A stretch of 64,000 nucleotides of DNA from Candidatus Gastranaerophilales bacterium (GTDB lineage Bacteria > Cyanobacteriota > Vampirovibrionia > Gastranaerophilales > Gastranaerophilaceae). The stretch spans positions 62,001 to 126,000 of the forward strand of contig CALUVM010000002.1 of the NCBI GenBank assembly GCA_944324255.1. Reading direction: 5' to 3'. Below the pieces are notes generated by a model. It did no database searches, was not told the DNA's origin, and was given only the letters and a program-made list of their open reading frames with translations. Below are positions 41,196 to 42,491 of the stretch, in pieces; within the stretch, counting starts at the first letter, position 1, and every line of letters begins with the position of its first letter. A program made the translations under genes and the position numbers.

Positions 41196-41272
41196 AAGTC
41201 TTGCTGCAAGGTGTGCGGGCGGGGGTAAATGAATCTCTGATTTATGTCATAGCCTCAAATGCAAGTAGCGAA

Positions 41273-41427
41273 GTGAAAATTAAATATGATGTGCGGGCGT
41301 TTAGCTCAGTTGCCAAGCGAGGCGACGAGGTTAGATAATCCGCAAAGGGTTCAGAAAGGCAGAGCCGAGCGAATAAAGATATTGACGCTCTACCAACTGA
41401 ACAAAGTGAAAATTAAATATGGTGTGC
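41273..41427 (+). repeat. Duplicated and inverted tRNA-Val fragments ahead of the tRNA
   Basis: The phrase AGTGAAAATTAAATATG, then TGTGCGGGCGTTTAGCTCAGTTG, occurs twice, near 41274 and near 41405; the second copy runs into the real tRNA. Bases 41295-41312 therefore duplicate the acceptor and D-arm start. Bases 41384-41400 (GACGCTCTACCAACTGA) are the exact reverse complement of tRNA bases 41439-41455. A third short copy of GTGTGCGGGCG begins near 41211. A segment GAAAGGCAGAGCCGA between them resembles one near 57.75 kb. Confidence 0.85.
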
Positions 41428-41503
41428 GGGCGTTTAGCTCAGTTGGTAGAGCGTCTCCCTTACAAGGAGAGGGTCAGAAGTTCGAGTCTTCTAACGCCCA
41501 CCA
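41428..41503 (+). tRNA. tRNA-Val (anticodon UAC), CCA encoded
   Basis: 76 nt. Acceptor stem GGGCGTT with AACGCCC, D-arm AGCTCAGTTGGTAGAGC, anticodon stem TCTCC/GGAGA with loop CTTACAA (anticodon TAC), T-arm AGAAG-TTCGAGT-CTTCT, discriminator A and encoded CCA. Confidence 0.97.
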
Positions 41504-41609: not shown

Positions 41610-41637
41610 TTGAAATTTGGTAAAAATAGTTTACAAT
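41610..41637 (+). promoter_or_regulatory. Promoter of the structured RNA
   Basis: TTGAAA (41610-41615), 16-nt spacer, TACAAT (41632-41637). The predicted +1 near 41643 coincides with the first base of the closing stem of the RNA described next. Confidence 0.6.
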
Positions 41638-41641
41638 AAAG

Positions 41642-41878
41642 ACACAGGGTGATAGTTTCCTAAGCTATCGGAAGCTCTGTAAGAGGTCTAACGGTTCTTA
41701 TTCTTTCTAGTAAGAGCCGTTCTTGATATGCATAAAATCAATAAGATTAAAAATAAACTTAAATTGAAATCACTCATATTAGCCTCCTTTCTAGTCGGGA
41801 ACTAACCCGAGGTCTACATAATAATTGTCGGTCTGTTCCTTAAGAAAAGAGCTTCTTTTACCCTGTGTTTACTTTTTC
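41642..41878 (+). ncRNA. Candidate structured RNA with paired ends, about 230 nt
   Basis: The two ends pair: ACACAGGGT (41643-41651) with ACCCTGTGT (41860-41868), and inside that GAAGCTCT with AGAGCTTC. Local hairpins are GATAG..CTATC, AACGGTTCTTA..TAAGAGCCGTT (11 bp) and TCGGG..CCCGA. A promoter ends just upstream, and TTTACTTTTT follows the 3' arm. Such closed-stem RNAs with local hairpins recall 6S RNA, retron RNA or type I toxin transcripts, but I cannot assign a family. The minus strand of the same segment carries a small ORF with an excellent ribosome site. Confidence 0.55.
41688..41777 (-). CDS. Candidate 29-aa hydrophobic peptide (type I toxin-like)
   Basis: ATG at 41777 is preceded by AGAAAGGAGG, a ten-base match to the anti-Shine-Dalgarno sequence. 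The peptide starts MSDFNLSLFLILLILCISR, has one membrane-spanning stretch and ends with a basic tail (TRKNKNR). Small size, one hydrophobic helix and a basic end match the general look of type I toxins and other tiny membrane peptides. It lies fully inside, and antisense to, the structured RNA; the same complementary arms could close its own mRNA. If real, the plus-strand RNA would be its antisense regulator. No homology is claimed. Confidence 0.4.
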   Translation of the reverse strand: MSDFNLSLFLILLILCISRTALTRKNKNR

Positions 41879-41990
41879 AATGTCCCACAAGCTTATTATC
41901 CATAAATTTTGTTGATTTGATAAATTATGAAATCAAAATTAAAATTTTAAATTTCATCTAAAAATTCTTTTATAGAAAGTTCTAACAACG

Positions 41991-42044
41991 CTTCTTTAAG
42001 CTCACCATAAAAAGGATAACAACTTTTGTTACCCTGTTTATTTT
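41991..42044 (+). repeat. tRNA-3'-end/terminator-like repeat, copy 1
   Basis: CTTCTTTAAGCTCACCATAA, then AAAGGATAACAACTTTTGTTACCCTG. It is about 85% alike to copy 2 at 42885-42940 and echoes the real tRNA-Val end (CTTCTAACGCCCACCA plus hairpin). The 42045-42491 stretch between it and the next gene has a purine-rich, GC-richer patch (42060-42220) with small inverted repeats but no gene that I can support. Confidence 0.6.
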
Positions 42045-42491
42045 GTATGAGTTTAAATACGAGAACTTTTGACCTGGAAGTTCGCTAGTTTTCTGGACAA
42101 GCGACGCAAACGAAAGTGAGCTGGTCTGGGTTGCGAGAATATTGAACAATATTGAATCGAGGGTTTATTTGCGAAACTATTCAAGCGTGAAGAAAATCCA
42201 AGCGAAGTTTTCTAACCCTATAATAAAGTATCCATTTAATATGTTAAAACATTATTTTTGCCATGATTTGTTTAATATCATTAGGTGAAGTATGGTTTTA
42301 AAAGATATTTGTAACAGATTGTAACAAATTGTTAAGCAAAAATAAAAATCTTTACAATATGATGAAAGCCAATATATTCCAGAACAGAAGAGATTGAAAT
42401 AGAAAAATTTTGCCTTTTTGTATTAAAGTTTTTTGAATTTGTGCCGATATACATAGGGTAAGACTATTGTAACAAATGAAAGGAGTGAATT

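Follow-up and report, generated by a model that had tools for sequence, protein, structure and literature searches.

The closest described systems set a small peptide against an antisense RNA. AapA peptides are about 30 amino acids (aa) in size, while IbsC has 19 aa and lacks a basic tail, with the Sib RNA spanning the whole ibs open reading frame (ORF). Such type I toxin-antitoxin modules have been reported from Proteobacteria, Firmicutes and Tenericutes together with one cyanobacterial candidate from 2025 (PMC12390103), and reports from outside those three phyla are few. In AapA and Hok, control involves an anti-Shine-Dalgarno sequence in the 3' untranslated region (UTR) of the mRNA (PMC6733600). 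Here we describe an element at positions 41642-41878 of a 64,000-nucleotide (nt) stretch of a Candidatus Gastranaerophilales genome (GCA_944324255.1, contig CALUVM010000002.1, positions 62,001 to 126,000; hereafter the window), in which a minus-strand gene for a small membrane peptide lies opposite a predicted folded plus-strand antisense RNA. The two very probably constitute a type I toxin-antitoxin module: those of its defining features that can be read from sequence all appear to be present, and conservation, covariation, strand assignment, promoter motifs and the coupling of peptide and RNA each argue for it.

The peptide gene, the antisense RNA and their folds

About 95 distinct copies of the element were aligned and examined in detail. 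In all but a handful of these, AGAAAGG[AG]GG and an ATG are followed on the minus strand by a peptide of the pattern M-x-[ND]-[FI]-N-[LI]-[STA]-L-x-L-I-x-L-I-L-x-I-[LI]-K-[NS]-x-[ST]-...-K-R. The minus-strand ORF of the original prediction, which follows a ten-base Shine-Dalgarno sequence and encodes 29 aa with a hydrophobic stretch and a basic tail, is hence a family feature:

41688..41777, minus strand: putative toxin ORF of 29 aa, MSDFNLSLFLILLILCISRTALTRKNKNR, conserved in about 90 copies, with no in-frame stop
41783..41792, minus strand: Shine-Dalgarno sequence AGAAAGGAGG, 5 nt from the ATG; nearly every copy has AGAAAGG[AG]GG or a similar sequence here

Across the family the peptide is 25-29 aa long, hydrophobic and basic-tailed, with a near-perfect Shine-Dalgarno sequence upstream; in the window copy the Kyte-Doolittle hydropathy reaches up to 3.36 over 11 residues and the tail is RKNKNR. 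Among 67 distinct frames, the nonsynonymous measure (pN) is 0.164 versus a synonymous one (pS) of 0.414, a ratio of 0.40, and there are no stops in the peptide frame as against up to 285 in the other frames. The peptide frame is under purifying selection. The window copy and several relatives have in common a one-base deletion in a T-run that results in a longer basic tail (KTALTRKNKNR-like); since those relatives carry the same deletion, the 29-aa form is a conserved variant rather than a wreck.

On the plus strand, the promoter that had been placed against the 5' arm of the element is indeed found, ending about 6 nt before the ACAGGG arm in the window and 6-7 nt before it across the family. 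It leads into a small RNA (sRNA) with the following predicted parts:

41610..41637, plus strand: antitoxin sRNA promoter TTGAAA-N16-TACAAT, 10/12 consensus matches
41643..41726, plus strand, ends approximate: antitoxin sRNA, two hairpins and a single-stranded linker, overlapping the toxin ORF in its 3' part and also the 3' UTR (covariance model R1)
41644..41680, plus strand: sRNA hairpin 1, with its 5' AGGG arm pairing to CUCU in the linker (covariance model R1)
41690..41725, plus strand: sRNA hairpin 2 and downstream T-run, the putative intrinsic terminator of the family, with the T-run interrupted in the window

The family form of the promoter is TTGACA/TTGAAA-N16/17-AATAAT/TATAAT, with at least 10/12 consensus matches in 92/94 copies and at least 11/12 in 88/94 (shuffled mean 6.65), and would thus be a strong promoter of the sigma-70 type. 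The covariance model R1, built from the plus RNA, scores the window copy at 80.6 bits. Hairpins 1 and 2 covary, with compensatory changes on both sides in 15/26 pairs, and the sRNA helices hold 122 double-change cells as against 35 in shuffles and at most 30 in slid versions; the linker is the least conserved part of the sRNA, with a mean identity of 56%. The covariation in homologues for which the original prediction had called is therefore present, and the helices are conserved in relatives, contrary to what would have refuted that prediction. Because TTTTTT follows hairpin 2 in most copies, this hairpin is most likely an intrinsic terminator located within the peptide frame, which would yield a plus RNA of about 84 nt ending at ...CCGTTTTTT. 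A plus-strand ORF (ATGCATAAAATC...) was considered as well and rejected, its start codon being unconserved (ACG or shifted in many copies).

The larger fold described in the original prediction is likewise found in the window sequence: the element ends ACACAGGGT (41642-41650) and ACCCTGTGT (41860-41868) form a 9-bp helix, the inner helix GAAGCTCT/AGAGCTTC is present, and local hairpins lie at about 41651-41669, 41690-41721 and 41795-41810. The T-run noted after the 3' arm of the end helix is there too, but it is unconserved in the family. The structure is far beyond chance on both strands and stronger on the plus strand (z = -6.75 for plus and -3.64 for minus, with 0/200 shuffles as stable on either strand). 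The parts of this fold that we assign to the minus strand or to the ends of the element are:

41640..41888, minus strand, ends approximate: predicted toxin mRNA, drawn from the promoter and the end pairing
41895..41923, minus strand: weak candidate toxin promoter, motif TTATCA-N17-GATAAT
41795..41810, minus strand: TCGGG...CCCGA hairpin just upstream of the Shine-Dalgarno sequence (18 A-C versus 1 G-U when read on plus)
41727..41779, minus strand: predicted ORF-internal hairpin burying the start codon (codons 1-3 against codons about 15-18), from wobble strand assignment and folding
41642..41650, no strand assigned: left arm of the end-to-end helix, at the toxin mRNA 3' end and the sRNA 5' end (ACAGGG), with compensatory changes in copies L044, L048 and L041
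41860..41868, no strand assigned: right arm of the end-to-end helix, in the 5' part of the toxin mRNA

The strand that uses a given helix can be read from its wobble pairs, as G-U pairs persist on the RNA that is used and are read as A-C on the opposite strand. Across 89 copies, hairpin 2 (222 G-U versus 6 A-C cells) and hairpin 1 (68 versus 15) point to the plus strand, while the start-codon hairpin, counted over the pairs common to both folds in the 5' half of the frame, points to the minus strand (3 versus 47), which is also favored by the TCGGG hairpin (1 versus 18). Since retained G-U pairs mark the used strand, the plus RNA is assigned the two sRNA hairpins, whereas the hairpin at the start codon falls to the minus mRNA. 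Strand ownership is less clear for the outer end-to-end helix with its compensatory changes in three copies; the long-range end pairing more plausibly fits the minus-strand peptide mRNA than the plus RNA. The toxin mRNA is predicted to begin ACAGGGUAAA, resembling the sRNA start ACAGGGUGG. Because retained wobble thus splits the helices between the strands, the 237-nt plus fold looks like two overlapping, strand-specific structures rather than a conserved plus transcript.

The predicted unpaired probability of the start codon is 0.006 in the native sequences versus 0.365 after synonymous resampling with the family's own codons, and it falls below the resamples in 65/67 frames and in 9/10 clusters of less than 80% identity. 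This modeling supports a coding sequence that locks its own start codon. In ensemble folding the Shine-Dalgarno sequence itself is not specially hidden; its sequestering by an anti-Shine-Dalgarno sequence after the stop codon, suggested by the minus consensus fold, was dropped after ensemble folding with shuffled 3' UTRs. As for the toxin promoter, at least 9/12 consensus matches are found in 54% of copies versus 5% when shuffled. One half of the family has TAGACA-N17-TAnnAT just before CAGGGTAAA. About half of the copies, including that of the window (41880-41900; type-B copies L002, L005 and L029), lack this motif beside CAGGGTAAA; in them a [GA]ACATTGAAAA motif, with a TATAAT-like box lying farther upstream, tends to recur instead, because of which the promoter seems to have been relocated in the type-B copies.

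Distribution, coupling and genomic context

A search with R1 against 383 genomes of the order Gastranaerophilales recovered matches in 140 of them, in 27/52 genera. The secure tally, with a best E of at most 1e-7 and weaker matches below about 40 bits excluded, is about 129/383 genomes; matches under that score (L147-L150) had neither promoter nor ORF where inspected and were treated as false. The element is found in about a third of the sampled species and is absent from about two thirds of the relatives. In a DNA search, 28/97 related genomes proved to contain copies, with a maximum of eight in one genome and some of them in tandem, and a pattern scan of GTDB contigs returned 68 stretches. 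In wider samples of the class and phylum, every R1 match listed lies in the same family of Gastranaerophilales; one genome of another family of the same order also has a match. Copies elsewhere come from assemblies titled Candidatus Gastranaerophilales or Melainabacteria or from generically titled metagenome bins, and one titled Acinetobacter is presumably mislabelled.

As the list of copies derives from the sRNA search, only a search starting from the peptide is unbiased with respect to the toxin side. The peptide profile alone, run on 146 genomes of the order, gave 87 matches at E up to 4e-5, of which 83 have an R1 match opposite them, similarly offset; one more (in genome G068) is also paired with the sRNA, bringing the coupled matches to 84/87. 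Of the three unpaired ones, one lies at a contig end (G149), one is diverged but retains a readable promoter and both hairpins (L210 in G196), and one is a relic (L211). Peptide genes hence appear essentially never to occur without the opposing RNA, while the sRNA is seen without a recognisable peptide at four places in those 146 genomes and in several further copies. This asymmetry is what would be expected if the peptide were harmful without the RNA.

Three genomes (L163 on G174:C28, L031 on G046:C1 and L037 on G035:C34) carry the element in tandem arrays, with 3 to 5 copies repeated every 320-330 bp or so. Their members have the promoter and hairpin 1 in common and differ in the linker, hairpin 2 and the peptide tail. 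Orthogonality of these tandem paralogues was unsupported by shared complementarity, as hairpin 1 is common to them and the longest common stretch has a median of 31.

The window copy is situated between tRNA-Val and a short hypothetical gene, with no prophage genes evident nearby. Within 2.5 kb of the family's copies, a tail-fibre assembly gene recurs at 12 loci, lying 20-55 nt away at the six nearest; tail-collar and terminase genes recur as well, and so do ordinary chromosomal genes. In a subset of genomes (copies L105, L112, L111 and L062) the immediate neighbor is a prophage gene for tail-fibre assembly, a tail chaperone or terminase, and phage-borne spread is suggested by this; no plasmid or phage record matched in PLSDB and INPHARED, and IMG/VR gave no exact pattern match.

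Three further repeats lie near the element in the window. The first, at 41271-41445, is a duplication: 42 nt that end within the 5' part of tRNA-Val occur again 133 nt upstream. Between the duplicates lie an inverted tRNA piece (GACGCTCTACCAACTGAAC) and GC-richer filler, and the block has a 78% copy on contig C23 of the same genome. The segment GATAACAACTTTTGTTACCCTGT at 42013-42037 resembles the element's right end (41844-41866) at 78% and, on the minus strand, folds into a hairpin like that of a terminator; it may be a terminator or what is left of a second tandem copy. A repeat rich in palindromes occupies 42055-42235, and contig C18 of this genome ends in a 78%-identical version of 101 nt of it.

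Proposed mechanism and alternatives

From these features we infer how the module would be transcribed, silenced and activated, and that its peptide would be toxic. The minus strand would give an mRNA of about 230-250 nt with its 5' and 3' ends paired and its start codon buried in the coding-sequence hairpin, and because of both the fresh transcript should be poorly translated. Should the mRNA open, through processing or breathing, the very strong Shine-Dalgarno sequence would drive synthesis of the hydrophobic, basic-tailed peptide of 25-29 aa, whose expected effect is to enter the inner membrane and perturb it. From the plus strand, a near-consensus constitutive promoter would produce the two-hairpin RNA of about 84 nt, fully complementary to the last 8-13 or so codons and the 3' UTR of the toxin mRNA. 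Since both RNAs are predicted to start with ACAGGGU, the sRNA could compete for the mRNA 3' end; its pairing with the mRNA would prevent translation and make the duplex a target of RNase III. Were the module lost, the toxin would be freed from its short-lived antidote. An occurrence in multiple copies, tandem, patchy and partly prophage-adjacent, is usual for type I modules.

The original prediction had left a choice between such a module and a new structured RNA, perhaps 6S-like. A single large RNA of about 237 nt would account for the very stable fold with paired ends. Yet the Rfam covariance-model search proposed at the time, including the 6S (RF00013) and retron models, gave no relevant match at the gathering threshold or at E up to 10, plus-strand selection is confined to the two-hairpin RNA, and the inner pairs keep wobble for the minus strand and not for the plus; moreover, unlike 6S, the element is multi-copy, patchy and missing from most relatives. 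We therefore give this reading almost no credence. That the plus RNA is the main product, acting in trans on targets elsewhere with the peptide secondary, is very unlikely too: although the strongest conserved promoter and the best covariation are both on the plus strand, and some copies have lost an intact peptide but retain the sRNA, conservation is lowest in the linker, the expected place of a trans seed site, and the peptide frame is under purifying selection.

An improbable but weightier alternative retains the same RNA mechanism and makes the peptide a non-toxic small membrane protein, such as a prophage moron or a membrane-stress regulator, whose dose is tuned by the cis-antisense RNA with no addiction or killing. 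The same sequence evidence is compatible with it, toxicity itself being the inferred part, and several copies adjoin tail-fibre assembly genes, where lysogenic-conversion genes lie. Against this, tandem amplification, an extreme Shine-Dalgarno sequence with a buried start codon and a presence in a third or so of species make up the usual signature of a type I toxin, and the one-sided coupling, in which the RNA may lack an intact peptide and the peptide gene is essentially never seen without the RNA, is of the same tenor. For the type I toxin-antitoxin option there is strong support: the peptide, the Shine-Dalgarno sequence, the antisense RNA and the promoters are conserved, wobble and covariation are strand-specific, and the coupling of the two genes is near-obligatory.

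Several observations weigh against the toxin-antitoxin reading. The peptide has no match to any known toxin family, and the toxin promoter is weaker in window-type copies. Sequestering of the Shine-Dalgarno sequence by the 3' UTR is unsupported by thermodynamic folding, the unpaired value being 0.29 at full length versus 0.22 with a shuffled 3' UTR. The sequences counted are related, so the counts do not equal independent events. In the window, the sRNA terminator is imperfect, with TTCTTG in place of the T-run; because this first terminator is weak, transcription there may run on to the later T-run near 41869-41878, and a longer antisense RNA spanning the whole mRNA may also be produced.

Comparison with known systems

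Profile searches with the peptide found nothing convincing in Pfam, NCBIfam, PADLOC and PDB. For Sib/Ibs, Ldr, Fst and Hok there was no relevant Rfam or Pfam/NCBIfam model match. For the retron msr-msd, no reverse transcriptase was evident by inspection among the nearby ORFs and Rfam gave no match. For AapA/IsoA, Rfam and Pfam likewise gave no match and the peptide profile matched no PDB chain, though no alignment with AapA itself was made. Because it is not recognisable as a member of any known family, the module is filed as what appears to be a new family of a known kind. This family is apparently undescribed, and no earlier report of such a module in Gastranaerophilales was found in the open-licence PMC literature.

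If this is true, it would be a large and evolutionarily well-supported type I family in a largely uncultivated gut order akin to cyanobacteria, and its dense sampling offers a clean view, through natural variation, of the way in which 240 bp accommodate an antisense RNA, a coding frame and two RNA folds. It also indicates that small peptide/antisense loci of gut metagenomes escape current family libraries; R1 is ready for use in annotation.

Among the described systems, the candidate type I module MsoT1/MsoA1 of Microcystis aeruginosa comes from the wider cyanobacterial lineage, but has a 63-aa toxin with two predicted membrane helices in a photosynthetic host and no reported relation to the peptide described here (PMC12390103). 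The Ibs/Sib modules of E. coli likewise place a very short hydrophobic peptide opposite a structured RNA in repeated intergenic copies; here, however, there is a basic tail, the sRNA covers only the 3' part of the ORF, and Rfam yields no match. With the Bacillus prophage modules BsrG/SR4 and TxpA/RatA, the element has in common the prophage association and the strong Shine-Dalgarno sequence (in part after PMC8309996), whereas its peptide has 25-29 aa as against 38 (BsrG) or more, its mRNA has an end-to-end helix, and no homology was found.

AapA/IsoA of Helicobacter and Campylobacter parallels it in the small hydrophobic, basic-tailed peptide, the cis-antisense RNA and the several chromosomal copies, and also in the long-distance 5'-3' pairing of the mRNA and the initiation-blocking hairpins in the coding region (PMC6733600), which are predicted for the present family. 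The differences are that no relation in sequence was detected, that here the start codon and not the Shine-Dalgarno sequence is the element predicted to be buried, that the intrinsic terminator of the sRNA lies inside the ORF, that both RNAs would begin ACAGGGU, and that the phylum is another; the 3'-UTR anti-Shine-Dalgarno control of AapA and Hok is unsupported here, as judged by thermodynamic prediction only. We tentatively suggest, at less than even odds, that the family could represent a new architectural sub-type, prophage- and chromosome-borne in Melainabacteria, in which an ORF-internal hairpin locks the start codon rather than the Shine-Dalgarno sequence, the sRNA terminates within the toxin ORF, and the sRNA 5' end copies that of the mRNA and so rivals it for one and the same 3' target; such a module might have a role in phage-phage exclusion or in maintaining lysogens. 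Taken together, and with no homology to known families detectable, the best reading of these comparisons is that the module would work in the manner of AapA/IsoA, BsrG/SR4 or Ibs/Sib.
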